In this document: in pieces, positions 10,406 to 60,772 of the stretch
Layout: each line of letters begins with the position of its first letter
Position numbering within the stretch: the stretch's first letter is position 1
DNA from: Candidatus Eisenbacteria bacterium
GTDB taxonomy: Bacteria; Eisenbacteria; RBG-16-71-46
DNA: 64,000 nt
NCBI GenBank assembly: GCA_020847735.1
Contig: JADLBL010000003.1
Span: 62,001-126,000, forward strand
Reading direction: 5' to 3'
Notes under the pieces: generated by a model
Told to the model about the DNA's origin: nothing
What the model saw: the letters and a program-made list of their open reading frames with translations, nothing else
Database searches by the model: none
Program-made: the position numbers and the translations under genes

Positions 10406-10420
10406 TCGAAAGAGAGCGAC

Positions 10421-11651: not shown

Positions 11652-11661
11652 GAGAGGAACG

Positions 11662-12105
11662 ATGGAAGTCATCCTGCTCGAAGACATGAAGGGCGTCGGC
11701 GCCAAGGGCGCGACCGTGAACGTGAAGCCGGGCTTCGCGCGCAACTACCTGCTGCCGCGCCGGCTCGCGATCCCGACCGGCACCAAGGCCGCGAACCTGT
11801 ACCAGGAGCTGGAGCGGCAGAAGTCGGCGCAGGCCGACAAGCTGATCGCGGCGGCCAGGATCGAAGCGGCCCGGCTCGACGGCTTCCAGGTCAACATTCC
11901 GGCGCAGGCGAACGAAGAGGACACGCTGTTCGGCTCGATCACCAACACCGACGTCGCCAGCGCGCTCGAAGCCGCGGGCCATGCCGTGGACAAGCGCCGC
12001 ATCGAGATGGACGAGCACATCAAGCAGCTCGGCAACTACGACGTCCTCGTGCGCTACTACGGCGGCGTGACGGCCACCGTGAAGGTCTGGGTGGTGCGGG
12101 CATGA
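11662..12105 (+). CDS. rplI: 50S ribosomal protein L9
   Basis: 147 residues. Begins MEVILLEDMKGVGAKGATV, then VKPGFARNYLLPR (L9 N-domain signature). A central helix and the C-domain with GSITNTDVA follow. It binds 23S rRNA domain V. Its stop overlaps the ATG of the foldase gene (ATGA). Confidence 0.97.
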   Translation: MEVILLEDMKGVGAKGATVNVKPGFARNYLLPRRLAIPTGTKAANLYQELERQKSAQADKLIAAARIEAARLDGFQVNIPAQANEEDTLFGSITNTDVASALEAAGHAVDKRRIEMDEHIKQLGNYDVLVRYYGGVTATVKVWVVRA

Positions 12106-13346: not shown

Positions 13347-13350
13347 CAGC

Positions 13351-13881
13351 GTGAAGATCGTCGAGGCGCGGGTCCACGGACTCGTCTACGACCCCAGGAC
13401 TCAGCAGCACGTCGTGGTGCTGCGCGAGCTGGAAGGCCCGCGCGTGCTGCCGATCTGGATCGGACCCGGCGAGGCGATGGCGATCCAGCGGCTCCTGACG
13501 CAGGAGTCCTTTCCCCGGCCGCTGACCCACGACCTGATCGCGCTGGTCGTCGAGGGGCTCAAGGCCCGCGTCGCGCGCGTCCTGATCGCCGATCTCAAGG
13601 AAGGCACCTTCTTCGCCACGCTCATCATCGAGCGCGAGGGCGGGCTGCTCTCGATTGACGCGCGGCCCAGCGACTCGATCGCGGTCGCGCTGCGCACCGG
13701 GGCGACCATCCTCGTCAACGAGGCGCTGCTCCAGGCGCCGCCCGAGCAGCAGGAGGAGGGCGCCGAGACGCCCGGGCCGGGCGAGCCGCCGGCCGAGCCG
13801 ACCGCCGAGGAGAAGGCCGAGCAACTGCGTCGCTACCTCGAGAAGCTGAACCCGGAAGACTTCGGCAAGTTCCAGATGTGA
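13351..13881 (+). CDS. DUF151 bifunctional-nuclease family protein
   Basis: 176 residues. The N-terminal ~130 residues match the DUF151 family (VLPIWIGPGEAMAIQ, RPLTHDLI, DARPSDSIAVALR), some members of which have DNase/RNase activity. The C-terminal ~45 residues are acidic and Pro-rich. GTG 13351 begins four bases after the foldase stop. Its TGA overlaps the GTG of the next gene. Confidence 0.88.
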   Translation: MKIVEARVHGLVYDPRTQQHVVVLRELEGPRVLPIWIGPGEAMAIQRLLTQESFPRPLTHDLIALVVEGLKARVARVLIADLKEGTFFATLIIEREGGLLSIDARPSDSIAVALRTGATILVNEALLQAPPEQQEEGAETPGPGEPPAEPTAEEKAEQLRRYLEKLNPEDFGKFQM

Positions 13882-15371: not shown

Positions 15372-15402
15372 CGGCTCCGCCCGTGCGAGATCTGGGGCCC
15401 GC

Positions 15403-16080
15403 TCAATACAGCCGGAAGTTGATCCGGAAGTACGCCCACACCGGTTGCAGGCTCCCCCCCGAGCGGTAGGGCCGGTAGCGGCACTGCAGCACCGCGGTCG
15501 TCGCCGCGTGCTCGAGCAGCGGATGGCGCGCGCCGCCGATGATCTCGACCTGCGCGACGCGCCCGGTCGTGTCCACCAGAGCGACCAGCTCGACCAGGCC
15601 CTCGATGTCCTTGAGGCGCGCCTCCTCGGGGTAATCCGGTCGGACGAGATTTTCGACGACCAGGTCCTCCGACTGGACGATCGGGCCTTCGAGCGCCATC
15701 GCGCGCAGGCGGGCCTCGAGCGTGAAGGCGTCCTCGCCGGCGTCCCTGCCGCGGCGCTCCGCCCGCGGCGTCGGAACCGTGCCCTGAGCCCGCGCGGGAC
15801 GCCGCCCGCCGCTCTCGCGCCGGCTCACCGGGGCGGCGCTCATCGAGTTGCGTCCGAGTTGCTCCTCGGGACCGCGCAGCTCGAGCAGGATGCGCTCGAC
15901 GTACTGGTCCGGCCCCTCGAATCCGAAGCGCCTGGAGTCGTCGAGCATCTCGCGCATCGCGGGCTGCCGGAGCACGGCGAGCAGCAGCAGCAGGGCGGCG
16001 CTGACGGCGGCGCCGAAGAGGCTCAGCCGGCGCTGGAAATGGGCGATTTCGCCGAAGTAGCCGTCAATCCCGTGCCGCAT
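15403..16080 (-). CDS. TonB-like energy-transducer family protein
   Basis: 225 residues from ATG at 16080. One N-terminal membrane helix (residues ~20-38), then a variable linker and a C-terminal TonB domain (~145-225) with RPDYPEEARLKDIEGLV and VLQCRYRPYRSGG. TonB couples the proton-motive force to outer-membrane transport; many paralogues in this group are of unknown partner. An open frame extends upstream into the amidase end, but the chosen Met gives the normal anchor topology. ExbB/ExbD are not in the window. Confidence 0.8.
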   Translation of the reverse strand: MRHGIDGYFGEIAHFQRRLSLFGAAVSAALLLLLAVLRQPAMREMLDDSRRFGFEGPDQYVERILLELRGPEEQLGRNSMSAAPVSRRESGGRRPARAQGTVPTPRAERRGRDAGEDAFTLEARLRAMALEGPIVQSEDLVVENLVRPDYPEEARLKDIEGLVELVALVDTTGRVAQVEIIGGARHPLLEHAATTAVLQCRYRPYRSGGSLQPVWAYFRINFRLY

Positions 16081-16124
16081 GCGGTCGCTCGGCCGATCGA
16101 GTGGAAGTACGCGGGCCCGGCCGG

Positions 16125-18557: not shown

Positions 18558-18583
18558 GCCGCAAGCTAGCTCCCGCGGCGGCG

Positions 18584-18645
18584 GCGCGGCAAGAAGGCTC
18601 CGCGCGATCGAACGCCGCGCCAGGGGGCCTTTGGTCTTGCCGCGC
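18584..18645. repeat. Imperfect long inverted repeat in the amidase/liv divergent region
   Basis: GCGCGGCAAG (18584-18593) and its exact complement CTTGCCGCGC (18636-18645) flank AAGGC...GCCTT arms (18594-18598, 18627-18631). It could be an operator between the divergent genes or a structured leader. No T-run follows on either strand. The rest of the 234-base gap (18558-18791) shows no coding frame. Confidence 0.45.
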
Positions 18646-18791
18646 GCGTCGGCAGCGTGCTACCTCTTGCCGCTCGGTTCCTGCAGGGTGGTGAACCAGC
18701 CCAATTGTCCCTCGTCGCACGTGGCCGCGCGACGCCCGCCCGCGGGCAGCCCGCCGGTTCGTGAGTCGATCCCCAGCACAGGGAGGTCGTC

Positions 18792-20003
18792 ATGAAGTTC
18801 CGCATCGGGTCCGGGGCGCTCGCCGCGCTCGCGCTCGGCGCCGCCATCGTTGCCGCCGGCTGCGCGGGCGGTTCGAAGCAGGACGAGATCGTCATCGGCG
18901 TCTACGGATCGCTGACCGGCAGCGACGCGACCTTCGGCCAGTCCACCAAGTCCGGCGTCGAGGTGGCGATGAAGCAGCTGGCCGACCACCAGGGCGGCAG
19001 GATCGGCGGACTCAAGGTCCGGACCGTGAACGAGGACGACCAGGGCAAGGCCGAGGAAGCGGCCACGGTCGTGCAGAAGCTGATCAACCAGGACCAGGTC
19101 GTCTCGGTGATCGGCGAGGTCGCCTCCTCGCGCAGCCTCGCGGCGGCGCCGATCTGCCAGGCGGCCGGCGTGCCGATGATCACGCCGTCCTCGACCAACC
19201 CGAAGGTCACGCAGGTCGGCGACTACATCTTCCGCATGTGCTTCCTCGACGACTTCCAGGGCCAGACCATGGCGCGCTTCGCGCTCGAGAACCTGGGGCT
19301 CAAGAAGGTCGCCATCCTCAAGGACGTCAAGAGCGACTACTCGGTCGGGCTCGCGCAGTACTTCACCGACGCGTTCACCAAGGGCGGCGGCAAGATCGTC
19401 GGCGAGCAGGCCTATCAGGCCGGCGATCAGGACTTCAGCGCCGCGCTCACCGCGATCAAGGCGCGCAATCCCGACGCCATCTTCATCCCCGGCTACTACA
19501 CCGAGGTCGGCCTCATCGCCCGCAAGGCGCGCGAGCTGGGCATCACCGTGCCGCTGCTCGGCGGCGACGGCTGGGAGAGCGAGAAGCTGCTGGAGATCGG
19601 CGGCGATGCGCTCAACGGCTCCTACTATTCGAACCACTGGGCGCTGGACAAGCCCGACTCGGTCCTGCAGGGCTTCCTCGACGCCTACCGCGCCCAGTTC
19701 AAGTCCGATCCCGACGCGATCGGCGGCCTCGCCTACGACGCCGCCCAGGTGCTGTTCCAGGCGATGGAGAAGCTGGCCGCCGACGATCCGAAGACGTTCG
19801 CCGCGCTCGGCTCGGCGAAGGCCGGAACGCCGGAGCGCAAGGCGGCGCTCGCGAAGCTGCGCGACCTGATCGCGGCGACGAAGGACTTCCCCGGCGTCAC
19901 GGGCACCATCACCCTCGACGCCAACCGCGACGCCTCGAAGCCGGCGGTGGTGATCGAGATCAAGGGCGGCAGGAAGGTCTACAACACCACCATTCAGCCG
20001 TAG
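18792..20003 (+). CDS. livJ: Branched-chain amino acid ABC transporter, substrate-binding lipoprotein
   Basis: 403 residues with a signal ending in lipobox AAGC (near residue 24). A type-1 periplasmic-binding fold follows (IVIGVYGSLTGSDATFGQ, ITPSSTNPKVT). It presents Leu/Ile/Val or a related small ligand to the LivHMGF transporter encoded directly downstream. GGAGG lies five bases before the ATG. Substrate is inferred from the family. Confidence 0.92.
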   Translation: MKFRIGSGALAALALGAAIVAAGCAGGSKQDEIVIGVYGSLTGSDATFGQSTKSGVEVAMKQLADHQGGRIGGLKVRTVNEDDQGKAEEAATVVQKLINQDQVVSVIGEVASSRSLAAAPICQAAGVPMITPSSTNPKVTQVGDYIFRMCFLDDFQGQTMARFALENLGLKKVAILKDVKSDYSVGLAQYFTDAFTKGGGKIVGEQAYQAGDQDFSAALTAIKARNPDAIFIPGYYTEVGLIARKARELGITVPLLGGDGWESEKLLEIGGDALNGSYYSNHWALDKPDSVLQGFLDAYRAQFKSDPDAIGGLAYDAAQVLFQAMEKLAADDPKTFAALGSAKAGTPERKAALAKLRDLIAATKDFPGVTGTITLDANRDASKPAVVIEIKGGRKVYNTTIQP

Positions 20004-36936: not shown

Positions 36937-37419
36937 TCAAGCGGTCGCGCGGCGTGCCTCGTAGGCCCGGTGCTGCAGGGCTTCGGCCACCCTGACCGCG
37001 GCGACGCGCTCCTCGCAGGCGAGGTCCGCGATCGTGCGGGCGACGCGCAGCGCACGATGCACCGCGCGCGCCGACATGCCGCCGCGGTCCACGGCATCGG
37101 CCACGAGGCGGCGGCCCGCCGCGTCGAGCGCGACGTGCACGCGCAGGGTCGCGCTCGACAAGGCCGCATTGAGAGCGCCGCGGGACCTCTGCCGTTCGCG
37201 CGCGGCCAGCACGCGCTCGCGCACCACGGCGCTCGCCTCGCCCGAACTCTCGCGCAGGAGTTCCTCCGAGGTGAGCGCCGGCACCTCGACCTGCAGATCG
37301 AGTCGATCGAGGATCGGCCCGCTCACGCGTTTCGCGTAGACCGCGAGATCGGAGGGACCGCACCGGCAACCCCGCTTGGGATGTCCCAGCCAGCCGCAGA
37401 AACACCGTTGCGTTGCCTT
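36937..37419 (-). pseudogene. comM: 3' end of comM (Mg-chelatase-like ATPase), copy A
   Basis: About 160 residues of the C-terminal part of the ComM/YifB family: a Cys-rich CGWLGHPKRGCRC loop, SGPILDRLDL, and the Mg_chelatase_C helices (SSATLRVHVALD, MSARAVHRALRVARTIADL, EALQHRAYE). Upstream of the ATQ codons (37410-37419) the frame meets a TAA and homology stops, so the first two thirds of the gene, including the Walker motifs, are missing. It adjoins the core chromosome, so it is probably the resident gene's own 3' end. Confidence 0.85.
37371..37419. repeat. att-like repeat, copy A (in comM)
   Basis: The plus strand carries CCCGCTTGGGATGTCCCAGCCA... then GTTGCGTTGCC (37407-37417). The same two blocks with the same 33-base offset recur at 43558-43606. 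Homology to comM ends right after GTTGCGTTGCC in both copies, so the recombination core is probably at or beside this 11-mer. Confidence 0.6.
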
Positions 37420-37439
37420 TTACCAGCCTTCGGCTATCG

Positions 37440-38132
37440 GTGCCCCGACCGCCCGCCCTGCCAAGGGGTTACTCGCCCGAGGTCAACACGCTCGGCGACC
37501 ACCCTCGGCGTCGGCGGCTGAATCTGGGGCAAACACAACGAACCACCGCCCGGGGTCTTGGAGTCCGGGAAGCGACTGTCGGGATCTGGGAGCGAGGGCT
37601 CGCCAGGCCACTTCCGCGGCACTACAGCGGGATTGTCCAGTTCATCGGGTTCAACCCAGAGGCGGTCGGCGATGGCCTGCTCGCTCGCCTTCTCGCCGCC
37701 CGGCGGCGGCTCGGACTGACTGCGGCCCAGTTCGCCGCCCGAACCGGGTTCGGCGAAGGTTCGATCTGTCGGTGGACGAGCGGGAAGCGGACACCCAGCC
37801 CTTGGATGGTCGGGAGGATTCGCGCCGTGCTCGCCGGGGTGGAAGGGCGAGACGCTGAGGGCGCCGCACCTCCCTCCTTCCTCGATCTGTTTCGCTGGCG
37901 CAGGAAGCTGCCGATCGGGGCCGAGCCGAGGACCTTCGGCGAGCGGTTCCGTGCCCACCAACTCGAACGCGGGCTCAGCCAGGAAGCGGCTGGAAGGTGT
38001 CTTGGAGTCGGGTGGGCGACGGTTGCCCGCTGGGAGCGAGGCGAGTGTCGACCGGGACAGCGGTGCGAACCTGCGCTCGTGCGCTTCCTCCAGCGTGAGG
38101 AACGCGAGGGCGGCCAGGACGCCTCGAAGTGA
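37440..38132 (+). CDS. Protein with three tandem XRE-type helix-turn-helix domains
   Basis: 230 residues from GTG 37440, only ~20 bases inside the att-like repeat. Three HTH units: ~22-75 (LGDHPRRRRLNLGQTQ, VREATVGIWERG, FIGFNPE), ~83-130 (LGLTAAQFAARTGFGEGSICRW) and ~165-220 (LSQEAAGRCLGVGWATVARWERG). One or two such units are usual; three in one chain is uncommon. Probably a DNA-binding regulator carried by the inserted DNA. No SD is obvious; starts further upstream would run into the att site. Confidence 0.72.
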   Translation: MPRPPALPRGYSPEVNTLGDHPRRRRLNLGQTQRTTARGLGVREATVGIWERGLARPLPRHYSGIVQFIGFNPEAVGDGLLARLLAARRRLGLTAAQFAARTGFGEGSICRWTSGKRTPSPWMVGRIRAVLAGVEGRDAEGAAPPSFLDLFRWRRKLPIGAEPRTFGERFRAHQLERGLSQEAAGRCLGVGWATVARWERGECRPGQRCEPALVRFLQREEREGGQDASK

Positions 38133-38325
38133 GAAGACTCGGAGGGATGGCTTCCGAAAGTGGCGCGCCGAGCGTTCTCTCGGCTGAGCGGCGGGCTTGC
38201 ACCCGGGGGGGGCAGGCGTACGGTCCTGCGCGTCCTCCCATGGGGGCTCGAGACGGCCGAGTTGGTCGGTCTTCTCGCGATGTCCGCTTCAAGCTGGCTG
38301 TCGAGTTGGTCAGGAGGACCGTGTC

Positions 38326-40482
38326 ATGACCACCAGCCCCGCGCACACCGTGCGCGCACCTTTCGTTCTCGCAATGGTTGTTTCGATCCTCGGCAGCTCG
38401 CCTGCGCCATCGCGAGCCATCTCTCTCCATTGGGCTTCAGGCGCCTCGACGCTCAAATTCGACGCTGCGACGCGGTGTACCTTGGTCGTCGAGGCGGATG
38501 CTTCCGAAGGGACCTTGCCGCCGGAGTGGAGGCTCCTCTGGGTCGCGGAGGGTCTCCCGAGCCTGTGCATCGTTCCGGACTCCACGTTTCTCGAACCGAC
38601 GATGGCGCAGGCCGTCAACGTGCTTCCACCCACCACCGCCGAGGCCGAAGGACACTTGGTTACCGCGGATTTTCGCTACCCCAACTCGCCTCCGATAGCT
38701 GCCGCGCGCTGGATTCTCGACCTGACGGCCGGGTCAGCAGGCAAGTTCATCGTCTACGCGTGCCTTGGTGACCCCGCGGCCGCATCGGGGCGTCTGGCTC
38801 GATCGGAGCCCGCCACCTTCAACGGAGGCGTGTCCGGGGAATTCCCGGCGGTGGTGATGGGCGCCACCGGCGATCACAGGACAACAAAGCTCTCTGTCAG
38901 GGCGTTTGGCGCAGGCCTCAGTGAGGCTGCTTCGGTGTGCCTGGTCGCCCCCGACACCTCCTGGCGCGTCCCGTTGACGATTGCCGAAGCGACGGATTCG
39001 ACGATCGCCGCCGAAGCCGAGGTGGTGACCCAACTGCCCGACGCAATTCTCCAGGTGACGCCCGCCAGCAGCATGAGCACGGCGACGCTGCTCTCCGCCT
39101 CGCAGGTCATGGCGCCGATGACCGAGCCGGTCACGATTCTCGGCAACTCGTTTCTCGTACCGCCGGATTCGGCGGGAGTCAGCCCCAAGGACTTCGCGTT
39201 CGTCTACAACACCGTCCCCACGGCGACTCCCGGGGTCTGGCGTGGGCTGTACCATCTGATCTACATTCGACGACTGCCGAATGGTGATGAGTGGACCCTC
39301 GGGCACGCGTGGTCCCCGGACTTGCAGAACTGGACTTCCAATAGATATGCATTTACAACTGGGCCACTGGGGTCATTTGACGCGGGTCACGTGTGGGCAC
39401 CGAGCATCGTGCAGAATGGCAACTTGTTCCAGATGTTCTACACTGGGGTGGATGCCGCTGGCAACCAGCGCATCGGCCGAGTGACAACGTCCGCGCTCGA
39501 CACCTCGAACACGACCTGGTCGGACCGCCAACTCGTCTACGCGGCGGACAGCACCAGTTGGGTCGTGAGGCATCCGTCCGCATTCGGCTTTCGAGACCAG
39601 TTCCGCGACCCGTTCGTGTTTCCTGATCCGGATTCTGACGGCCAATTCCTTATGGTCTACACGGCAATGGACACGAACTACAAGCCACAAAATGGCCTCT
39701 CGGTGGGGCTGGCGCGCAATCGGCCCGGTACGCTGGAAAGATGGGTCGATCTCGGCCGCTACGGATACACGGACTGGGGCCGCAATGGGCACAAGGCTCA
39801 GGTGGAATCTCCTCACGTCATCCCCGATTCGGGCTACGTGCCGCCCTACGGGCAACCGGAGAATCGACCGACTGGTTGGCGACTGATGTATACATGGGGC
39901 GGCGACCACCCAACCGACCAGACGTTGCGGATCGCTCGGGATACCCTCATGACGAATGTGGCCGATACGGCCAGCGCAGGTTGGGGTTACACCCGGACGT
40001 TGTACAACTACCTTTCGTCGGACCCGACCGTTCTGGGGGTGAACGGCACAGAACATCTGAAAGCCGGAAACATCGACTTCCTGGCAGGCTACAACGCCTA
40101 TCTCGTGGATGGGATTCAGATCGCAAGGATGTACTGGAACGGCATCGACTTCTCCCTTCGCGTGCCGGCAGTCACGGGCGTCGACGTCGTTGGGTCGACC
40201 ACGGCGAGCGTCAGGCTGAGCGTACGGCGATTCGACCCGCGCAATGAGAAGGTGGAGTTCCACATCAGTCTGCCGACCGCCCTCGCGGTGCGGCTCGACC
40301 TCTACGACGTGATGGGCAGGCGCCTCCGAACTCTCGTGAACAGAAAGTTGCCCATTGGCGACACGGTCGTGCCGTGGGATCATTCGGGCGCAACCGGCGC
40401 GACCGTGTCGAGCGGCATGTACTTCGCTCGGTTGACGTACGAGTCAGGGAGTCGTGTTGCCCGTATCCCGTTCATAAGGTGA
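38326..40482 (+). CDS. Secreted five-bladed-propeller glycosidase-like protein with FlgD-type C-terminal module
   Basis: 718 residues. Signal peptide at residues ~10-31 (APFVLAMVVSILGSS). An Ig-like N-terminal part precedes a GH43/GH32-style propeller between ~310 and 590 (LYHLIYIRRLPNG, LGHAWSPDLQNWT, FRDPFVFPDPDSDGQFLMVYTAMD). The C-terminal ~80 residues are a FlgD-like Ig module (VRLDLYDVMGRRLRTLVN, GATVSSGMYFARLTY). Glycan hydrolysis or binding is inferred from the fold; I cannot place all catalytic acids. Codon use is visibly less GC-extreme than the core genes. Confidence 0.68.
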   Translation: MTTSPAHTVRAPFVLAMVVSILGSSPAPSRAISLHWASGASTLKFDAATRCTLVVEADASEGTLPPEWRLLWVAEGLPSLCIVPDSTFLEPTMAQAVNVLPPTTAEAEGHLVTADFRYPNSPPIAAARWILDLTAGSAGKFIVYACLGDPAAASGRLARSEPATFNGGVSGEFPAVVMGATGDHRTTKLSVRAFGAGLSEAASVCLVAPDTSWRVPLTIAEATDSTIAAEAEVVTQLPDAILQVTPASSMSTATLLSASQVMAPMTEPVTILGNSFLVPPDSAGVSPKDFAFVYNTVPTATPGVWRGLYHLIYIRRLPNGDEWTLGHAWSPDLQNWTSNRYAFTTGPLGSFDAGHVWAPSIVQNGNLFQMFYTGVDAAGNQRIGRVTTSALDTSNTTWSDRQLVYAADSTSWVVRHPSAFGFRDQFRDPFVFPDPDSDGQFLMVYTAMDTNYKPQNGLSVGLARNRPGTLERWVDLGRYGYTDWGRNGHKAQVESPHVIPDSGYVPPYGQPENRPTGWRLMYTWGGDHPTDQTLRIARDTLMTNVADTASAGWGYTRTLYNYLSSDPTVLGVNGTEHLKAGNIDFLAGYNAYLVDGIQIARMYWNGIDFSLRVPAVTGVDVVGSTTASVRLSVRRFDPRNEKVEFHISLPTALAVRLDLYDVMGRRLRTLVNRKLPIGDTVVPWDHSGATGATVSSGMYFARLTYESGSRVARIPFIR

Positions 40483-40512
40483 GCCCACGAGCACTGAACA
40501 TGCGACAGGGAG

Positions 40513-43068
40513 ATGGTGCGCAGGATCGGTGACCCCAGCAACGAGCGTAACAGTCGATCGCTTGTGGTAGTTGGGCCTTCCGCTGGAACCGCCAGACGCT
40601 CGCCCATGGGCCGCTGGGGGGGTGCGGTGGGGATGCTGCGTGCGTTCGGGCACGGGCTGCTTGCGCTGGTTGTGCTCAGTTCGCCCACCGCAACAGGCGC
40701 CCAGACCGCGGACGCAAACCTCTGGGGTGCCGACCCGGACGGAACCGTGCTGGCGGTCGCCCGCTCCGGCAATACGATGTACATGGGCGGAACGTTCACG
40801 CATGTTGCGCCGGTGACCGGTGCCGGCGTCCCATTTGATGCTGGCACCGGCCAGCCGCTCCCCAGTTACCCCAGGGTTGCAGGCCGGGTCTACTGCGTGA
40901 TCTCGGACGGGGCCGGCGGTTGGTTCATCGGCGGAAACTTCGGAGGAGTGGGCGGCCTGGCTCGCAAGAACCTCGCGCACATCCTCCGAGACGGTAGCGT
41001 GGCCAAATGGGCCCCCGATCCCGACGGCGACGTTCATGCCCTCGCCCTGTGCGGCACCAAGCTCTATGTCGGTGGTGCATTCACGCAAATTGCAGGCCGG
41101 TTGCGATCCAACCTTGCCGCCCTGAGCACGACCACAGGGGCCGCTACGTCCTGGAACCCCGGCACAGACTACGTCGTCAAGGCAATTCTCGTTCGCGACC
41201 GCAGCGTGTACGTCGGTGGCCAGTTCTATCACGCAGGAGGCCAGCAACGGTACCGGCTCGCCGAACTGAGCACGGCCACGGCGCAAGCCACGGACTGGCG
41301 ACCTGATCCCGACAACGAGGTGTTGTCGCTGGCGATCATCGGGGACACGCTGTTCGCGGGAGGCTACTTTCGAAACATGGCGGGCAAACCACGCGACTAC
41401 CTCGCCGCCGTCAGCCGGACGACCGGGGCACTCCTGCCCTGGAACGCGGCAGTGAGTCGGGTTCCCCAGTTCCTGTACGACGGTGGCCCACAGGTCACGG
41501 CGCTGATCGTCGATCGCGGCACGCTCTATGTGGCCGGGTATTTCAACCGCATTGGCGGAGCGACGAGACAGGGTCTCGCTGCGCTGTCGACAGCAACCGG
41601 CGAGGCATCCCCCTGGGATCCCCGCGCGGTGAGGGAGTCTCCTATTACAGCGATCTTCTTCACCATGGCGCTGGAGGGCACATCCCTCTACGTTGCAGGG
41701 TCATTTGACAGTCTCGGCGGCCTGCCAGGACAACTCGCGGGATCGGTGGACACTCGCACCGGCCTCGCCCTCCCCTGGCGTCCCGATCCAAATCAGGGAA
41801 TCACCGCGCTCGCGATACAAGACGGCACGCTCTACGCGGGGGGCTGGTTTACGAGTCTAGGGCCCCGAGTGCATCGACACGGGCTCGCCGCCTTCGACAT
41901 GCGCACGGGCTCTGTGACGGACTGGGACCCGAGTCCCGACGGAACCGTCAACGCGCTGGGCGTGCGTGACGGTACCGTGTACGTGGGGGGAGGATTCTCA
42001 ACGATCGGCGGTCAGGCTCGAGCGAACGTGGCGGCACTGGATTCCGCATCGGGGTTGGCGACACCTTGGAATCCTTCGTGCAGTGGACCCGTATGGACGC
42101 TCTCGATCGCCGAGAGCACAGTGTACGTGGGGGGCTGGTTCGATGGCGTGGGAGGGCAATCGCGTCGGAACATCGCCGCGCTCGACCTTGCCAGTGGGCT
42201 GGCCACCGCTTGGCACCCGGATCCCAACGATGCCGTCACAACGATTGCGCCCCACGGCGGCGAAGTATTCGTTGGAGGCTGGTTCAGCCACATCGGAGGC
42301 GTGCCGCGCCTCTACGTTGCCGCCGTGAGTGCCGATTCCGGACAGGCCACCTCGTGGGTCTCGGATGCAAGTGACTACGTGGACTGCATTGCCGTCAACG
42401 ACACCGTGGTTTACGTCTCCGGGTACTTCAACTACATCGGCGGACGCGCTCGAGACGGGATTGCCGCCCTGAGCACACTCAATGGCACGCCCACCGAGTG
42501 GCTCGCGAATGCCAGCCGCGAGGTTAAGCAGGTGCTCGTCAGCGACGGAGTGGTCTACGCCGCCGGCGCCTTCAGCACTATCGGAGGCGAGGCTCGGGAC
42601 TTCATTGCGGCGCTCGATCCCCTCACCGGGGAGGTCCTTGACTGGAATCCCGGCGCCGATGGCGTGGTCTGGGCGCTCGGCGTGGGAGGCGGCCGCGTCT
42701 ACGCGGGCGGAGCGTTCCAGCGCATGGGGACCGCTCCCTGCGGCCTTATCGCTTCGATCTCCCCGGCGAGCGGGTCCAGTGCGCCTGGGGGCCCAGGCCT
42801 CGGTGGAGTAGTCGTGTCGCTAAGCGCCACGAACCCTGTGACGAGCGATGCGATCTTCCGCTTCACGCTCCGTGAAGCGGCCACGACGGATCTGGAGGTG
42901 TTCGACCTCGCTGGCCGAAGGCTGGCCCGCCCACTGATCCGCCAAAGACAGGTCGCTGGGCCTCACGAAGTAGCGGCAAGCACGAGGGACTGGCCGTCGG
43001 GCTGCTACTTCTACCGGCTTGCCGTGGGTGCTGAAGCGCACACACGCAAGCTTATGGTCGTCCACTGA
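40513..43068 (+). CDS. Secreted repeat beta-propeller protein with FlgD-type C-terminal module
   Basis: Up to 851 residues. The start is uncertain: ATG 40513, or ATG 40606/40633, which put the signal peptide (FGHGLLALVVLSSPTATGA) at the N-terminus. The body is a long array of ~50-residue repeats of the pattern 'tlYvGG-F-x-x-iGG-x-x-R-x-x-lAALd-x-x-tG-x-a-x-x-W-x-P', at least ten copies, resembling delta-60/PQQ-like surface propellers. The last ~75 residues (TTDLEVFDLAGRRLARPL, DWPSGCYFYRLAVG, RKLMVVH) form the export/anchoring-type FlgD module. Probably surface-exposed adhesion or binding; no catalytic motif seen. Confidence 0.75.
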   Translation: MVRRIGDPSNERNSRSLVVVGPSAGTARRSPMGRWGGAVGMLRAFGHGLLALVVLSSPTATGAQTADANLWGADPDGTVLAVARSGNTMYMGGTFTHVAPVTGAGVPFDAGTGQPLPSYPRVAGRVYCVISDGAGGWFIGGNFGGVGGLARKNLAHILRDGSVAKWAPDPDGDVHALALCGTKLYVGGAFTQIAGRLRSNLAALSTTTGAATSWNPGTDYVVKAILVRDRSVYVGGQFYHAGGQQRYRLAELSTATAQATDWRPDPDNEVLSLAIIGDTLFAGGYFRNMAGKPRDYLAAVSRTTGALLPWNAAVSRVPQFLYDGGPQVTALIVDRGTLYVAGYFNRIGGATRQGLAALSTATGEASPWDPRAVRESPITAIFFTMALEGTSLYVAGSFDSLGGLPGQLAGSVDTRTGLALPWRPDPNQGITALAIQDGTLYAGGWFTSLGPRVHRHGLAAFDMRTGSVTDWDPSPDGTVNALGVRDGTVYVGGGFSTIGGQARANVAALDSASGLATPWNPSCSGPVWTLSIAESTVYVGGWFDGVGGQSRRNIAALDLASGLATAWHPDPNDAVTTIAPHGGEVFVGGWFSHIGGVPRLYVAAVSADSGQATSWVSDASDYVDCIAVNDTVVYVSGYFNYIGGRARDGIAALSTLNGTPTEWLANASREVKQVLVSDGVVYAAGAFSTIGGEARDFIAALDPLTGEVLDWNPGADGVVWALGVGGGRVYAGGAFQRMGTAPCGLIASISPASGSSAPGGPGLGGVVVSLSATNPVTSDAIFRFTLREAATTDLEVFDLAGRRLARPLIRQRQVAGPHEVAASTRDWPSGCYFYRLAVGAEAHTRKLMVVH

Positions 43069-43117
43069 GGGGGCAGCGGCGACTCGGATCTCGGCATGAC
43101 CGTTTCAGCCGAAGCGT

Positions 43118-43606
43118 TCACCCCGCTCCTGTCTCATGTCGAGCCTCGTACGCGCGGTACTGCAGCGCCTCCGCCAATCGCAACGGGCGCACACTCACCT
43201 CGGCGGCGAGATCCGCGATTGTCCGGGCCACTCGCATGGCGCGATGCACGGCTCGTGCGCTCATGCCGCCACGATCCACCGCATCCGCGACGAGTTGGCG
43301 CCCAGTCGTGTCGAGCGCGCAGTATTCGCGCAGCGTCGCATTCGGCAGCATCGCGTTGAGGTATCCACGCGCGAACTGGCACGCACGCGCCGCGAGCACG
43401 CGCTCGCGTACGACGGCACTCGTCTCTCCGAGAGATGCCCGCAGCAGCTCGTCGGATGTCAGCGCGGGTACCTCAATCTGAATATCAATACGGTCTAATA
43501 TAGGACCACTGACGCGCGTCGAGTGACGCGCCATCTCATGGGGAGTGCACCTGCACCCCCGCTTGGGATGTCCCAGCCACCCGCACGCGCAAGGTTGCGT
43601 TGCCAA
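43118..43606 (-). pseudogene. comM: 3' end of comM, copy B (diverged)
   Basis: About 160 residues, same extent as copy A and breaking at the same codons (ATQPCACGWLGHPKRGC...). Over the last ~128 residues it is about 75% identical to copy A by hand alignment, so it is not a recent duplicate but comes from another lineage. Upstream of the ATQ codons the DNA becomes the serine recombinase gene. The frame is intact to its stop, so it could complete a comM gene if joined to a 5' part. Confidence 0.82.
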
Positions 43607-45096
43607 TTGCCGGCTACTTCGGCGGGACCGGGAAAGTAGGCGAGGTCGATCTCGACCTCGCTCCTTCCGACCCGGACGGCATCGACCACGGCCTCGATGA
43701 TAGCCCTTTTCTCACTGGCACTTAGAGCCGGCCAGCGCTCGTAGAGATCCTTCGCTCCTGAGAGGATCTCGTCCCTTGCCAAGAACTGGACCTTGGCGAA
43801 ATCCACCTCGCCCTGGAGCCGGGGGAGTTCCTCGTCGAGCTGCTTGAGGCGCTCCTCGAGTGGCTTGTAGGTCCGGCCGAAGCCGTCGGGGGAGATCTGG
43901 TCGTCGATGTAGAGCCGGTAGACCTTGGCCATCTCGGTCCGGACCTTCTCGGCCTCGGCCTCCAAAACGCCGAGGTGCTCCTCCTTGGCCCGGATCTCCT
44001 CGTCGGCTGCCCCGACGTAGGCGGCCACGTCCTCAGGCGAGAGGAAGAAGCTGCGGAGCTGCTCGTGGAAGACCGCCTCGAGGTCCTCGGGGGTGATCTT
44101 GTTCCGGCAGGCCCGGCAGATGTACTTGACCGTCCGGTAGCTGGCGTCGGCGTACATCCGCTGGCCGCAGTGGCAGGCGACTACCCCGGCGAAGAGGTGG
44201 GCGGGCTTCTTGGCTGGCGGCTTGGCTGTGACCCGGCGGTCGTCGAGGATGGCGTTGCACTGACTCCAGAGGCCCTCTGGGACGATCGGCTCCACGGGAG
44301 AGAGGACCCAGTCGCTCTCCGGCTTGAGGACCCAGTGCTTCTTCTCGCCAAGGGACTTGGTGTAGTTGGCACGGCGCAGGCCCTTGGCCGTCGAATCCCG
44401 GATCAGGCGCTCGACGGTCGTATCCGACCACATGCCACCCGTGCGCGTACGGTACCCGCGTTCGTTGAGCAACCGGGCCACGGCCTTCTTGCGCTTGTGC
44501 TCGAGGAAGAGCTCGTAGAGGAGCTTCCGGACCGGCGCCTCGGCCGGATCGGGAATGAGCTGCTTGTCCTTCCACTGGTAGCCGTAGGGGGCGGCCCCGC
44601 CGGTGGACTTGCCAAGCTTGGCCCGGATAGGCACCGAGGCCGCGACGCGCTCAGCGATCTCCTCCCGCTCCCACTGCGCCATGGCCGCGATCATGGTGTA
44701 GAAGAGCCGGCCGGCCGGGGTGGTGGTGTCGATGGACTCCTGCAGGGAGATCAAGTCCGCGTCATGGTCGCGGAAGTAGTCGGCGAAGTCGAGCAGCTCG
44801 CGGGTGTTCCGAGCCAGCCGGGCAAGCTTGGAGAAGATGAGCCCCGTGATGTGGCCGGTGGCCACGTGGCCCATCATCTTCTTCGCCTCGGAGTGCTCGC
44901 GGACGCTCTTCCCGCTTACGCCCTCGAGGTGGTAGACCTCACGAACCTTCCAGCCCTTGCTCTCCGCGTAGCCGCGGGCGCGTTTCTCGTGGTGCTCGGG
45001 GCTCTCGCCTCGCGCCTGGTCCTCGGTCGAGACACGGATCCAGATGCCGACGGGCTTGGACCGTTCCACTCCTTCAACGACTCGCAGCTTCCTCAT
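43495..45096 (-). CDS. Large serine recombinase (integrase), reading through the att site
   Basis: 533 residues. Resolvase catalytic domain with nucleophile S23 in RVSTEDQ, then LARLARNTRELLDFADYF and a long helix. A 'recombinase' domain follows (APYGYQW, LLNERGYRTRTGGMWS), a zinc ribbon (CHCGQRM...CRAC), and a coiled coil (~365-445). This is the normal layout of site-specific phage/ICE integrases. The frame does not stop at the element edge: after about residue 497 (PGPAEVAGNWQRNLA) it passes through the shared att block and reads ~35 residues out of frame through comM copy B. Its C-terminus is therefore host-supplied and its native end unclear. Confidence 0.88.
   Translation of the reverse strand: MRKLRVVEGVERSKPVGIWIRVSTEDQARGESPEHHEKRARGYAESKGWKVREVYHLEGVSGKSVREHSEAKKMMGHVATGHITGLIFSKLARLARNTRELLDFADYFRDHDADLISLQESIDTTTPAGRLFYTMIAAMAQWEREEIAERVAASVPIRAKLGKSTGGAAPYGYQWKDKQLIPDPAEAPVRKLLYELFLEHKRKKAVARLLNERGYRTRTGGMWSDTTVERLIRDSTAKGLRRANYTKSLGEKKHWVLKPESDWVLSPVEPIVPEGLWSQCNAILDDRRVTAKPPAKKPAHLFAGVVACHCGQRMYADASYRTVKYICRACRNKITPEDLEAVFHEQLRSFFLSPEDVAAYVGAADEEIRAKEEHLGVLEAEAEKVRTEMAKVYRLYIDDQISPDGFGRTYKPLEERLKQLDEELPRLQGEVDFAKVQFLARDEILSGAKDLYERWPALSASEKRAIIEAVVDAVRVGRSEVEIDLAYFPGPAEVAGNWQRNLARAGGWDIPSGGAGALPMRWRVTRRASVVLY
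43558..43606. repeat. att-like repeat, copy B (element/comM junction)
   Basis: CCCGCTTGGGATGTCCCAGCCA from 43558 and GTTGCGTTGCC at 43594-43604 repeat copy A at 37371-37417 with identical spacing. It lies inside the 3' end of the serine recombinase, the usual position of an attachment site beside its integrase gene. Confidence 0.6.
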
Positions 45097-45145: not shown

Positions 45146-45580
45146 TCACAGGAGGAACCGCTGCGCCAAGAAGATCATGCCGAGCAGCGTCACGTACACC
45201 GGCCAGACCGAGAACGAGAACAACGCGCCGACCAGGCCGATGCCGCCGGCCGGCTGGACGGCGTAGAGGTCGGCGGCCCTGAGCTGCCCGTGGTGCAGTT
45301 GGTCGATGAAGGTGTTGTACGACCGCCGGAACCCGCGTTCGAGCCCGAGGTAATACGCGTCGAGCACGAAGAAGAGGGCCGTCGGGATTGCCGCGAGCCA
45401 GACGTAGTTCGGCCTGCCCTTGTCGGCAACGACGACGAGCACCGCCGATACGAGTCCGATGCACCACGCCTTGCACGAGGTGCTGTTGGACGCCATTCGT
45501 TGAATGACCGACTGCAGGATGCTGAGGTGAGCCTGAACCGCAGGCGATGCGTCCGAGTAGGTCGCCGATTCGGGAGTCAT
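45146..45580 (-). CDS. Small three-helix membrane protein paired with a TIR protein
   Basis: 144 residues from ATG 45580, which begins one base after the TIR gene's stop; an upstream frame would overlap the TIR gene. A soluble helix (VQAHLSILQSVIQRMASNS) is followed by membrane segments at ~37-53, ~58-78 (FFVLDAYYLGLERGFRRSY, a striking Asp/Tyr/Arg-rich exit) and ~112-140. No enzyme motif. The tight pairing with a TIR NADase-type protein suggests a membrane effector or sensor in a defence module. I do not know a named family for it. Confidence 0.75.
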   Translation of the reverse strand: MTPESATYSDASPAVQAHLSILQSVIQRMASNSTSCKAWCIGLVSAVLVVVADKGRPNYVWLAAIPTALFFVLDAYYLGLERGFRRSYNTFIDQLHHGQLRAADLYAVQPAGGIGLVGALFSFSVWPVYVTLLGMIFLAQRFLL

Positions 45581-45581
45581 G

Positions 45582-46166
45582 TCAGTCCACCCACGAAGCG
45601 AAGTTGATGTATCCGTCATGTGCGATCCAGTCATACACGGGGAAGAAGTTGCTCAAGTTGAACCCCTTGCCCCAGTACTTCTGTGCGACACCGCCGGTCT
45701 GGAACGAGGGACCATTGCCGATCTCCCCGTATTCGATCCACTTGTCGGCCTTCTTCTCCCACAGGGTAGCGGTCAGTCCGGTGTCTGAGTAGGTCACGCC
45801 GACATACTCAAGTGGATTTGGACCGAGCGGCTTCACTTCGCGGTTCTTGTCTCGTATAGAATTGACGTGAACCGCGAGCAAGCCCTTTCCCAAGTAGAAG
45901 CTCAGCAGGAGTTCGTAGCGGACCCATGGACGCAGGTAGGTGTCGGAGCCAACGAGCACACACGTGACGCTTGTACCGTCGATCGCTCCGTTGATGAGAC
46001 GCTTGAGCGCTGTCGTTCCTTGCTTCCTTGCCGACTCCCAGATTGACGCATCGAAGAACCCTGCAGCTTCGCGGTCCGGTTTCGCGCGCCAGGATTGGCG
46101 CACGACGTTCGCGCGGAAGTCCGCCACATCTTGGTAGTCGAAGCTGAAGAAGACCCTTTTGGCCAT
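45582..46166 (-). CDS. TIR-like protein, ThsB (PF08937/DUF1863) type
   Basis: 194 residues starting MAKRVFFSFDYQDV, the standard opening of the MTH538/ThsB TIR-like family. ThsB proteins sense phage and use NAD+ to make a cyclic ADP-ribose-type signal. A conserved Glu, E85 in RPWVRYELLLSF, occupies the expected catalytic position. The frame is open to ATG 46187, directly after the translocase stop, but Met 46166 gives the family N-terminus. The classical partner ThsA (SIR2-SLOG or TM-macro) is absent; the next gene is a 3-TM protein. Operon with the translocase upstream. Confidence 0.85.
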   Translation of the reverse strand: MAKRVFFSFDYQDVADFRANVVRQSWRAKPDREAAGFFDASIWESARKQGTTALKRLINGAIDGTSVTCVLVGSDTYLRPWVRYELLLSFYLGKGLLAVHVNSIRDKNREVKPLGPNPLEYVGVTYSDTGLTATLWEKKADKWIEYGEIGNGPSFQTGGVAQKYWGKGFNLSNFFPVYDWIAHDGYINFASWVD

Positions 46167-46187
46167 CTGCCCTCGCCTCACGAGCAT

Positions 46188-49100
46188 TCAGGACTTGCTC
46201 TTCCGCATTCGCTTCACTGCTTGCGCAACCACTGCCGAGACCACGCCGTGTCGCTCGGTCTTCGTCGCGCTCGTTGTCGGCTTGATACGGACCTTCACCT
46301 TGTAACCGCGCACCGTCTGCTCGCTCACGTGGGTCTCGGCGTCGGCGGCATCGAGCACGTCGAACAGGTTCTCGGGCGTGCAGTAGGCCACCTTGCCCAG
46401 CTGCTCCTCGGTCAGGATCGCGGCCGATTCGCGCTTCATGGTTTTCAGCGTCTTCTGATCCGCCGCGACATGCAGCACTCGGCCGAAGCCGGCGGCGAGG
46501 CATTTCTGAAGATTCTCCACTTCGTGGTCGGAGCTGGTGGTGACGCCGATCTCGACCGCTACCCCCTTCTCACCCTTCCGCAGCGCCACGTCGACGTTGC
46601 CGAGGCCGTCGAGGACGCTCTCCTCGACCGTCGAGCGCCAGTCGTGAGTGTCGGCCCACCGACAGATGAGGGACTGCAGGTACTTGTGCTGCTTGCCGCC
46701 GCGTCCAGGGCTCGACGCCGGCGTCGGGATCTCGACGGCAGAAGGTGGCAGAAGTGGTGCCGGGACCGCGGGGGATTCGGCCCCGGCACGTTCCCGTCGC
46801 GGGGGCGACGGTGGCGTCGGTGGTTCGACGCGCTTCGATTCTAGCTCCTGGGCAGCGCCCGAGCGAGCCAGCAGCGCCTCGATCTCCGCCCGCGGCCGGC
46901 CGTAGCGCTCACGTGTCCGGCCCACGATGTGGGCCCGGGTTTCCGTGCTGGCCGCCTCATCAACGAGCGGCAGCATGGTGGTGGCGAGGTTGAAGTCGAA
47001 CTCGGAGCGCTCGATCCGGGCGATGGCCTGCCCAGTGGAGAGGGACTGTAAGTCGCGCGCATCGAAGTGCTGAAACCCGTCGGCCAACGTCCGGGCGTCC
47101 TGATCCCCGACCCGGAAGCAGATCCGAGCGTAGGGATTGGACAGCACTGAGTTCAGGACGTCCACGCTGCGGCTTTGAATCTGCCGCAGGTCCTGGTGCG
47201 CCAGCACCAACCCGAGCCGGTACTTCCGCGCGCCAGAGAGGATCGACTCCATCGACGGAGTGACGAAGTTGTGGAACTCATCGACGTAGAGGTAGAACGG
47301 CCGGCGCTCGGCTGCGGCCTGTTCCTGCCGGCTCATGGCGAGCTGTTGCAGCTTGGAGACGATGAGTGTGCCAAGGAGGTAGGCGTTTTCTTCGCCGATC
47401 GCGCCTTGAGAGAGCCGCGCCAGCAGTACCTGCCCGCCGTCCATGATCCGCCGCAAGTCCAGCCGGCTGTCCTGCTGGGCCACCATGTAGCGGATGGTCT
47501 TGGGCCGCAGGAAGATGTCGAGGCGCGTGAGGAGCGGTGCCTGCGGCTTGCCCGAGAGGAGCGGGAACTCCTTCTGCCAGTAGTAGACGACCTCCGAATC
47601 GTTGACCGTCTTGAGGAACTCTCGGCGGAAGTCAGCCTCGACGAGAAACCGGCGCAGGTCCACCAGCGTCCCGCCGCGGCCACTCTCGAGGAAGGCGAGG
47701 ATCGCGTTCCCGAGGACCGACGTCATTTGGTCGCCCCAGCTCGTCGAGAGCCGGCGGAAGACTGACACGAGATCCGATGCCAGGAGCGTTCGCTCGAGCT
47801 CGGAGTGCGCCTGCAGGATGTTGAAACCGACCGGGTACTCACCATCGGAAGGATCGAGCAGCACGACGTCGTCTCGCCTACTCGCAGGCAGCCGGCGCAC
47901 AACCTCGTCTATGAGGTCACCGTGCGGATCGAGGACCGCCAGGCCTTCCCCGCGATCGAGGCTCTGGAGGATCAAGGAGAGCAAGAGCGTGGACTTGCCC
48001 GTGCCCGAGGCCCCGACGACGTACAGGTGCCGCGAGCGTTGATCGTCGCTCAAGGCCACCGGCGTGCTCTTGCCCGCGTGCATGTTCGTGCCGAGCACGT
48101 AGTCGTGATTGGTCGCGACGGCCGGGGCCATGCGCGTCTTGCCGGACTCGCGGACGAGCTTCTCCAGCCGCACCGTGGCCGAAGGCGGGTGAACGAGCGA
48201 GACAAGCTCGGCGCAGCTAAGCAGCATTCCGCTGCGGCGGGTCAGGCGGCGGAGCAGATCCTGTTCGTGGAACTCGTCGGGGTAGTCGTCGTTGGCGAGC
48301 GGGACCAGCCGATTTGCCGGCGGGTTAGTGAGCGCGTTCAAGGCCCAGCCCACCGAGCGGGCAAGAAGCATCGCGCGCTGAGGGTCGGGAGATCGCACAC
48401 CAACGCGAACGACGCAGGCGTAGAGCGGTCGAGAGATCTTCTCGCGGGCGAGCGCCGTCACCTCGGGTGCATCGAGGAAGAACGGGCTGCCGCCTTCGTC
48501 GAGGACGGCCCGCAGGATGCTCTCCGCCCACGGCTCGCGCGTCGGCTGGAAGAGCACCTGCAGTACCGCGGTCTCGCCCGGTTCGAGTTCGGACATCGCT
48601 GCTCCGATGCCCGTCAGAGGATCGACGGTGAAGCGCCGCAGCGTCCGGAGCGGCAGCATGAACTCCTCGGAGAGCCCGAACTCCACGACGACGGAGTGGC
48701 CGCCTTGCTGCTGCCAGGCTGTTTCGAGGGAGCCGTCGGCGGTGGTCAAGACGCTCGCGGGAAAGAACCCCCTCACCTGCTGCTGGACGAGTGAGCGGTC
48801 CGCTTCAGCGCAGACGAGCTGAACCGCGATCGCCTCGGCCGTGCCAATGACTTCGAATGTGACCGAGCGCCGCAGGTGCGGCAATGCGAGCAGGAACTGT
48901 TCGACTTCCTCGGGCGAGACGTCGTGGTCCGGCGGCAGCGACCAGCGCAGTTCCGTCAGCGGCTCGCTGTCATCGATCGCCCCGGGCTCGGAGTCCTCCT
49001 CGTCAAGGACGGCATGCTCCGACTCATCCGCGGGCGATGGCCCCGCGCCAAGGATTCGGTCGGTCAGCCGGCTCCAGAGCGTCGAGACGCGGCCATCGTC

Positions 49101-49289
49101 AAGGTCCGAAGGCGACCGCGACACGTGGTGGAAGCGGAACGGCGCGAAGGGCGGTTCCAGTTCCACAGGCGAGTCCCATACCCGCCAACCACGGCCGCGC
49201 CGCTCCCAGGTGTAGAACTGCTCGGTCAGTCGCTCAATCGACGAGGCCAGCACGCAGACCTCACGAGGGATTGACGGCGGAAGCGCCAC
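46188..49289 (-). CDS. VirD4/HerA-type DNA translocase ATPase with C-terminal restriction-nuclease-like domain
   Basis: 1033 residues. N-terminal ~400 residues are a variable domain with beta strands and no obvious membrane helix. The ATPase has Walker A GASGTGKS (426-433), VLDPHGDLIDEVVRRLP, a TraG-like middle (SWGDQMTSVLGNAILAF), Walker B FYLYVDEF (665-672) and ARKYRLGLVLAHQ. This is the conjugative coupling-protein-like branch of HerA/FtsK ATPases. After a Pro-rich linker (820-865), residues ~868-960 look like a PD-(D/E)xK fold (E890, GNVDVAL with D900, VAVEIGVTT with E913). It probably pumps and cuts element DNA. No relaxase or T4SS pilus genes are in the window. Overlaps the membrane partner upstream by 29 bases. 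Confidence 0.82.
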   Translation of the reverse strand: MALPPSIPREVCVLASSIERLTEQFYTWERRGRGWRVWDSPVELEPPFAPFRFHHVSRSPSDLDDGRVSTLWSRLTDRILGAGPSPADESEHAVLDEEDSEPGAIDDSEPLTELRWSLPPDHDVSPEEVEQFLLALPHLRRSVTFEVIGTAEAIAVQLVCAEADRSLVQQQVRGFFPASVLTTADGSLETAWQQQGGHSVVVEFGLSEEFMLPLRTLRRFTVDPLTGIGAAMSELEPGETAVLQVLFQPTREPWAESILRAVLDEGGSPFFLDAPEVTALAREKISRPLYACVVRVGVRSPDPQRAMLLARSVGWALNALTNPPANRLVPLANDDYPDEFHEQDLLRRLTRRSGMLLSCAELVSLVHPPSATVRLEKLVRESGKTRMAPAVATNHDYVLGTNMHAGKSTPVALSDDQRSRHLYVVGASGTGKSTLLLSLILQSLDRGEGLAVLDPHGDLIDEVVRRLPASRRDDVVLLDPSDGEYPVGFNILQAHSELERTLLASDLVSVFRRLSTSWGDQMTSVLGNAILAFLESGRGGTLVDLRRFLVEADFRREFLKTVNDSEVVYYWQKEFPLLSGKPQAPLLTRLDIFLRPKTIRYMVAQQDSRLDLRRIMDGGQVLLARLSQGAIGEENAYLLGTLIVSKLQQLAMSRQEQAAAERRPFYLYVDEFHNFVTPSMESILSGARKYRLGLVLAHQDLRQIQSRSVDVLNSVLSNPYARICFRVGDQDARTLADGFQHFDARDLQSLSTGQAIARIERSEFDFNLATTMLPLVDEAASTETRAHIVGRTRERYGRPRAEIEALLARSGAAQELESKRVEPPTPPSPPRRERAGAESPAVPAPLLPPSAVEIPTPASSPGRGGKQHKYLQSLICRWADTHDWRSTVEESVLDGLGNVDVALRKGEKGVAVEIGVTTSSDHEVENLQKCLAAGFGRVLHVAADQKTLKTMKRESAAILTEEQLGKVAYCTPENLFDVLDAADAETHVSEQTVRGYKVKVRIKPTTSATKTERHGVVSAVVAQAVKRMRKSKS

Positions 49290-59610: not shown

Positions 59611-60123
59611 TTACATCTCTGTGGCGGCAACCGCGATCGCCAGCGCGTCGAACATGTGCAGCCAGTACTTGTGCTTGGGCCGCAGGCCGAGTGCTGGCCG
59701 CGCTGGGCGTTTCGGGACGAGTTGGCGCAAGTGGCCGAAGCCGTGAGCAACGAGATGCTCGGCCACGTCGATCTTCGTGGCCCGGGGATTCCCGGTGACA
59801 CGCTGACGAATAGCCACCGGCGAGAGTTCGACGACGTCGATGCCCAGTTCCTCCGATCGGTCACGCAGCTCATCGGCCAAGACGTTCAGCAGGTGGGCCC
59901 GATGGCCGGGCAAGTCAAAGGGTTTCTCGATCGCCACGACGTCGGGATCGTGCTCCTCGATCAAGTTCAGCACGTGCTGCTTGGCCAGCCCGATCGCTTC
60001 GTGATGGCGCTTGCCATTCGGCAGCGTGCGCACGCCGAACCAGACGAGCACGTGAGCCCGCAGGACAACGAGCCCCATCTCGCGGGTTCCGGGATCGATG
60101 CCGATGACGGTCTTGGACTGCAT
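59611..60123 (-). CDS. RuvC-like Holliday-junction resolvase, copy 1
   Basis: 170 residues from ATG 60123. RNase-H-fold acid residues: IGIDPGTREMGL (D), VVAIEKPF (E), and HMFDALAIAVAA (D). The open frame upstream has no homology, so this Met is chosen; no SD precedes it. Resolvases of this type process branched DNA in phages and ICEs. Followed upstream by a second, diverged resolvase. Confidence 0.82.
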   Translation of the reverse strand: MQSKTVIGIDPGTREMGLVVLRAHVLVWFGVRTLPNGKRHHEAIGLAKQHVLNLIEEHDPDVVAIEKPFDLPGHRAHLLNVLADELRDRSEELGIDVVELSPVAIRQRVTGNPRATKIDVAEHLVAHGFGHLRQLVPKRPARPALGLRPKHKYWLHMFDALAIAVAATEM

Positions 60124-60244: not shown

Positions 60245-60772
60245 TCAGCCGGAGTGCCGGCTGCGGGAGGGCGGGTGCGCGACCACCTGGTGGTGCCACG
60301 CGAGGCCAACGGCATCGAGGTCGTTGAGCCAGTAGCGTTCCTTCCAGCGCCGGTCCTGCGTCAGCAGGAGCCGAAGTTGCGGGAAGCGATGCGCGACGAT
60401 GACGGCCGCTTCGGCCTTCGTGGCCTTGCCATTCCCGGCGACCGTCTGCCGTACGGCTTGCGGCGAATACGTGTGCAGCGGGATGCGCCAGGCTTTGGCG
60501 ATGCGCCGCGCGGCGAGCGTGATGCGGTGGAGGTTGTTGAGCCAGGGCACGGGATGCCGGTACGTCTTCTCCACGACGAGTGCCCCGGGACGGTGCCGAT
60601 TGACGAGTCGGCCCATCCCCAAGGTTGCTTCGCGAAGTCGCTGGTCCTTGGGCAGTGAACGAAGCGGGATGACGCCGTGCTCGAGGAGACGTCGGCCGGC
60701 GAGGATGGCGTATCCGAGTTCCCGGGTGCCGGGATCGATGGCGAGGATGGGGCGGCTAGGATTTCTGGGCAT
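60245..60772 (-). CDS. RuvC-like Holliday-junction resolvase, copy 2
   Basis: 175 residues. Motifs ILAIDPGTRELGYAIL (D), ALVVEKTY (E), and LNDLDAVGLAWHH (D). It is only distantly similar to copy 1 but has the same layout, including a T-x-x-G-N/K-A-T-K-x-x-A segment in both (VTGNPRATK, VAGNGKATK). The start overlaps the stop of the winged-helix gene by 17 bases. Two resolvase-type genes in a row suggest either different substrates or a heteromeric enzyme. Confidence 0.82.
   Translation of the reverse strand: MPRNPSRPILAIDPGTRELGYAILAGRRLLEHGVIPLRSLPKDQRLREATLGMGRLVNRHRPGALVVEKTYRHPVPWLNNLHRITLAARRIAKAWRIPLHTYSPQAVRQTVAGNGKATKAEAAVIVAHRFPQLRLLLTQDRRWKERYWLNDLDAVGLAWHHQVVAHPPSRSRHSG

Follow-up and report, generated by a model that had tools for sequence, protein, structure and literature searches.

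How the genome of one uncultured bacterium comes to hold two diverged 3' ends of the competence gene comM, broken at the same codon and lying on one contig, is the question raised by a stretch of DNA of 64,000 nucleotides (the window; G000:C3:62001-126000). The genome, G000, is 3.66 Mb in 27 contigs and 99.56% complete, and the relatives compared with it by name are labelled Candidatus Eisenbacteria. Taken together, the evidence concerns both where the two ends came from and what brought them there, and it points to an element family by which the tail of comM seems to be swapped and stacked through the action of serine integrases.

Two comM tails and a 5' part on another contig

Both tails lie on the minus strand and read uninterrupted as far as their stop codons: copy A at 37404-36937, with the TG core at 37404-37403, and copy B from its TG core to its stop codon at 43591-43118, which retains a match to Mg_chelatase_C (Pfam PF13335, E=1.2e-27). 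The initial annotation had described two diverged comM 3' ends cut at a single codon, and this is borne out, the break falling in both at the identical codon, the Cys of MNP/C. It had placed the start of both copies at their ATQ codons; these are GGCAACGCAAC, the end of the element's attachment half-site, and lie outside comM, which properly begins with the TG that opens the MNP/C Cys codon. Likewise, comM 3' fragments in relatives begin at TG after GGCAACGCA and three nucleotides (half-site form GGCAACGCA..-TG). The copies are indeed diverged, at 72.0% DNA identity over 450 columns rather than the approximately 75% first estimated, and at 73% protein identity. Given a dN of 0.21 and a dS of 1.39 (dN/dS ~0.15), both tails derive from genes under selection for function.

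Searches of the genome with ChlI and Mg_chelatase_C returned only A and B as C-terminal comM halves, and a single strong N-terminal half on another contig (C20:9872-10234). This 5' part terminates as ATGAACCCG-TG-GGCCAGCGTTGCC, at the same TG as A and B, the gene on C20 reading ATGAACCCG-TG-GGCCAGCGTTGCCATTTAC and then passing to an HTH gene. Joined at TG, it is in frame with A (MNPCFCGW) and with B (MNPCACGW) alike. It had been predicted that a comM 5' part with its end at this codon would lie to the right of the window; the part and its ending are as predicted, on a separate contig, and the rightward position depends on an assembly gap. Since C3 ends 963 bp past the window end, we infer that the element beside B continues to C20 across that gap, and that C3 and C20 are two sides of one island.

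On composition and synteny, the 5' part and the outer tail A prove native, and B proves foreign in composition, matching the island as a whole. GC3 is 88.6 in the C20 5' part, 86.5 in A (p=0.55 against the 5' part), and 71.3 in B (p=4.6e-6 against the 5' part, p=0.0013 against A). To the left of A, window 25-33 kb shares synteny with the region that follows the comM tails of G014, G009, G004, and G005 (C69); to the right of the 5' part, C20 matches what neighbors comM upstream in other relatives. GC per kb is 71-75% to the left, changes at 37.4 kb, and stays at ~60-68% from 38 kb to the window end; the inserted island occupies 37405-64000 within the window and, at its other end, positions 1-9250 of C20 (L008), where GC is 62.6% as opposed to 73.2% at 9251-20000.

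The island, its recombinase, and their site in comM

Beside A, the island begins with an HTH-side attachment half-site (AAGGCTGGTAAAAGGCAACGCAACGG; 37405-37430, minus strand), which at 27.3 bits outscores every other place in the window under the HTH-half profile, and with an XRE-type HTH gene that starts at the attachment site (37407-38132, plus; HTH_31, HTH_3). This gene, ORF1 (38197-40482, plus; a weak glycosyl hydrolase 32-like domain, PF00251, E=6e-9), and ORF2 (40513-43068, plus; a DUF5122 beta-propeller protein, PF17164, E=1e-18) sit between A and B, and the same three stand in the same order between two tails on G005 C38. An ORF2 homolog also lies downstream of the intact comM of G003. 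ORF1/ORF2 pairs form a family with many copies, common at other places in these genomes (G005 has 15 ORF1 matches), and are therefore not comM-specific. Beside B lies an integrase-side half-site (GTAGCCGGCAATTGGCAACGCAACCT; 43592-43617, minus), which scores 20.8 bits with the integrase-half profile versus 11.5 with the HTH-half profile. The integrase abuts copy B as originally annotated: the reading frame of the large serine recombinase P0002 (43495-45096, minus) crosses the attachment site, and its last ~32 codons are read from B in another frame.

The cargo beside the integrase and on C20 resembles defense genes by PADLOC and Pfam. Two candidate defense genes, PDC-M50A-like and ThsB/TIR-like (45146-46187, minus), have homologs adjoining the integrase in G002, and a TraD/HerA-like ATPase of 1033 aa (46188-49289, minus; Pfam, NCBIfam, PADLOC) adjoins the integrase also in G040, G024, and G020. 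The C20 end (L008 719-7170) encodes a DNA methylase, a PbeA-like helicase, and a HATPase-domain protein, likely a defense cluster. No phage domain was found in the island ORFs scanned with Pfam, the island being incomplete. RuvC-like genes occur as a tandem pair in the window (59749-60108 and 60389-60748, minus), with an ordinary ruvC separately on C24; further pairs occupy C3:182-1182, C8:120041-121015, and C21:166148-167132 of G000, the two on C3 lying near opposite ends of the contig in opposite orientation, and a similar-looking pair (L193 3693-4740) stands just upstream of an intact comM in G083.

P0002 comprises a Resolvase domain (PF00239, E=3.6e-30) and a Recombinase domain (PF07508, E=2.1e-19). 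Five aligned recombinases share invariant S23, the catalytic serine of the N-terminal motif, and C308, C310, C327, and C330, the cysteines of the zinc ribbon. P0002 is 65-70% identical to recombinases that abut comM 5' parts in relatives, and a profile built from five members retrieved 80 relatives, from named genomes that belong to many phyla. In ~55 of the 80, a comM 5' part cut at MNP/C directly adjoins the integrase gene's 3' end and lies on the strand opposite to it, and because so many share that break its occurrence in both A and B is not chance. At the opposite end of these elements, an HTH gene precedes nearly all comM 3' fragments examined. Read toward the core, the half-site consensus is aTgacGgCAaaaaGGCAACgCAaCcT on the integrase side (n=50) and.A..t.gcAaAA.GGCAACGCA.c.a on the HTH side (n=23); both carry GGCAACGCA, which forms an inverted repeat around a 2-bp TG core common to both junctions. 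The half-site places were picked from comM alignments and the profile is descriptive, not an independent prediction; each of the three sites of G000 scores as the single best place in a search of the window. P0002 thus belongs to a comM-specific family of large serine recombinases, predicted to be active and to insert DNA at the TG in the MNP/C codons.

No close phage or plasmid relative of the integrase emerged: among the matches listed, those from phages were at most 27.5% identical and those from plasmids all below 60%. A scan of viral contigs for an HTH half-site joined to a comM tail yielded four contigs, in which a search for comM, HTH, and integrase reported nothing. G014 has a different serine recombinase (L078 7022-9090; 24% identity to P0002) next to the same codon of comM, as well as a further recombinase gene (L079 3980-4546) that follows an HTH-TG junction; one comM site may be common to several integrase families. 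Some relatives of the integrase (L173, L179, and L185, and also L176) have junctions with AC where the core is otherwise TG, so that the codons read MNPT; the core or the target may be a variant there. The decayed comM of G040 (L075 5434-5742) carries TGAGG between its joined 5' and 3' parts; these are the first bases of the integrase-side junction and perhaps the scar of an imprecise excision.

Orientation adds a further feature. The usual order in relatives is comM 5' part, integrase, HTH gene, comM 3' part; in G000 the order is inverted, with the HTH gene beside the 5' part on C20 and the integrase beside B, and this inverted order is complete on one G087 contig, over ~21 kb. In both orientations the comM strand reads TG at the core, and consequently the circular form would have its core reversed with respect to the half-sites. 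A near-palindromic attachment site with a 2-bp core, found in both orientations in nature, makes the setting of orientation testable.

Stacked and apparently rebuilt tails in other genomes

In both surveys, several genomes yielded multiple matches to the comM C-terminal part, some of them frameshifted single genes or distant copies. Two genomes were picked because their stack is complete on a single contig. On G086 C17, the comM 5' part lies at 12.0-13.0 kb and the tails at 51.3 and 74.9 kb; on C2 of G095 (Euryhalocaulis caribicus JL2009, whose record title names a strain and not a MAG), the 5' part lies at 187.7-188.7 kb and the tails at 130.5 and 100.1 kb. GC3 for the 5' part, outer tail, and inner tail is 67.4, 66.7, and 54.9 in G086 (p=0.009, uncorrected) and 87.6, 87.0, and 78.2 in G095 (p=0.012, uncorrected; a frameshift in the inner tail blurs its GC3). 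The arrangement of a native outer and a foreign inner tail thus recurs, at modest p values, in two other genomes of unrelated bacteria. G071 C2 holds three HTH-comM 3' junctions and a partial tail at the contig start. An integrase of the P0002 type is absent from all 11 segments beside or between tails, and the homology between the DNA downstream of inner and outer tails that might be expected, had a donor comM neighborhood been captured, was detected in neither G086 nor G095.

In G003 (L085), which belongs to the same genus, comM is open through the core, and GC3 is 88.3 before TG and 76.5 after it (p=0.004, uncorrected), a 3' part of foreign composition. A sliding profile shows a dip of 75-100 codons, located around the core and beyond it, with recovery toward the gene's end; the composition break is therefore not sharp. 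None of six other intact family comM genes put to this GC3 test shows a drop after the core, and in one, G013, GC3 rises (p=0.045). The far side of the putative insertion lies beyond the end of the G003 contig. To judge from its sequence, this gene is apparently in the rebuilt state that the two-step history would predict. Trees of comM tails neither favored nor rejected any placement of B or of G003.

The native comM of G005 is intact over two contigs that overlap by 38 bp, and its tails lie at another locus. C148 and C38 of this genome were considered as one array and rejected as such, the contigs having no overlap. An empty site for the C38 array was sought through its neighbor gene in three relatives; two have other DNA there, without comM, the third contig ends too soon, and no clean empty site emerged. 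The G005 C38a tail and the G014 C171 tail, from different genera, are 86.6% identical, a value above the 77-78% obtained when the two tails of each genome are compared. Such sharing, together with the non-comM locus of G005 and the integrase-free segments, lends weak support to the tail as a mobile end.

Competing histories and known systems

The history that we regard as probable, though well short of certain, is a nested double insertion at the comM TG, in which foreign tail B came first and the integrase element second. DNA with an HTH-type attachment end and the foreign 3' end B would have entered native comM, leaving a chimeric 5'-B gene, presumably functional, and displacing native tail A to the far end. 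An integrase-carrying element would then have used the rebuilt site and separated the 5' part from B, with its HTH end beside the 5' part and its integrase beside the tail, opposite to most relatives. The tail DNA may have travelled either as a non-autonomous cassette mobilized in trans or within composite inserts whose integrase part was later excised, leaving the foreign tail on the native 5' part; the latter needs only standard serine-integrase reactions. This is in essence the two-step model of the initial annotation, in which a foreign 3' end rebuilds comM before a second element arrives. Its order of events accords with a native A and foreign B, with G003, and with repeats in other phyla; the break is moved from ATQ to the TG of MNP/C, and the second element is inverted with respect to most relatives. 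Nested insertion is favored because of the same-codon breaks, the native 5' part and A, the foreign B, the in-frame joins, the repeats elsewhere, and the apparent rebuilt intermediate. Against it, a serine integrase that inserted an HTH half together with a comM tail would be carrying out an unusual reaction, the G005 tails stand at a non-comM locus that the simple model does not predict, the C3-C20 link spans a gap, and the composition p values for G003, G086, and G095 are modest (0.004, 0.009, and 0.012, uncorrected).

In a bolder and more tentative form of the nested history, the comM tail might itself be a mobile boundary: non-autonomous cassettes of HTH end, cargo, and comM 3' end would be inserted in trans by a comM integrase at the junction of 5' part and TG, each giving comM a new C-terminal part and pushing older tails outward, in an integron-like array that a serine recombinase builds on a gene. 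The arrangement, no integrase being present in the 11 segments, is compatible with such cassettes. Other histories deserve to be weighed against the nested one. It is unlikely, if conceivable, that the whole stack (HTH to integrase, then B, ORF2, ORF1, and HTH) was built in a donor, excised by its outermost ends, and inserted once, B then being a donor passenger and the chimeric gene never having existed in this lineage. GC is uniform over the island, B included, the outermost half-sites (at A and on C20) share GTAAAwGGCAACGC in keeping with a near-palindromic attP around TG, and a single insertion would suffice here; however, the stacking is merely moved to the donor and left without explanation, and G003 of the same genus apparently carries a rebuilt comM. 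That the assembly joins two genomes between 37 and 43 kb would accord with its 27 contigs and with the GC shift at 37.4 kb, and is very improbable: the shift falls exactly at an attachment core, HTH-ORF1-ORF2 recurs between two tails in the independent assembly G005, and single-contig stacks exist elsewhere, one of them in the strain-titled G095 record. Hardly credible at all is a duplication of the host tail with later divergence, since 72% DNA identity, a dS of 1.39, differing GC3 (p=0.0013), and a start exactly at the attachment core in each copy speak against it, even though A and B are both comM tails on the same strand.

If incoming DNA is able to supply comM with a new tail, the site becomes reusable and the gene survives. 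This would explain why islands stack at comM and would allow its C-terminal part to evolve by replacement.

comM acts in natural transformation and is a common target of serine integrases. Of predicted site-specific integrases, 12.4% insert into the magnesium chelatase-like gene (comM/yifB) according to Durrant et al. 2022 (PMC10083194), in whose relevant passages diverse serine integrases insert into it, as here, and carried or stacked replacement tails, present here, are not described. The Wolbachia prophage sr1WO has a serine recombinase, a magnesium chelatase gene as target, and portions of that gene on both sides, and one report suggests that its orientation is apparently not fixed (PMC9203015; PMC5447182). 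sr1WO is a prophage, whereas the island has no phage domain among its scanned proteins, and the likeness drawn here is that of the target gene. The Acinetobacter AbaR islands are moved by a transposon-type system, and we know of no replacement comM tail in them; they split comM as the present island does. Their removal raised natural transformability, according to one study (PMC7508600), and another develops the idea that comM insertions serve to block transformation, as a form of intragenomic conflict (PMC11472951). A transformation-blocking role would be compatible with the island.

SCC and Ccr systems were considered and set aside. Among NCBIfam models, the integrase comes nearest to CcrB and CcrC, at 116 and 97 bits, far under the cut-off of 900 for each. 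SCC elements form tandem cassettes at one gene, and their target is the 3' tip of rlmH, whereas the insertion here lies in mid-comM with a coding tail of ~470 bp carried along. Accretion of ICEs and IMEs at shared attachment sites reportedly stacks elements at one site in a similar way. Tyrosine-integrase elements usually restore the very end of a gene within the attachment site; here, in contrast, a whole C-terminal coding segment lies beyond it. Integrases that target comM were thus already known, and no description of carried or stacked comM tails was found in searches of open-access literature, where absence is weak evidence. An element may also carry a whole spare comM, as at L124 8382-11476, where an element that has split another comM (5' part 89% identical) contains an intact comM immediately upstream of its integrase. 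G083 has a split comM 5' part with an integrase (L152), and an intact comM and an HTH-comM 3' end together on one contig (L193 4798-15257).
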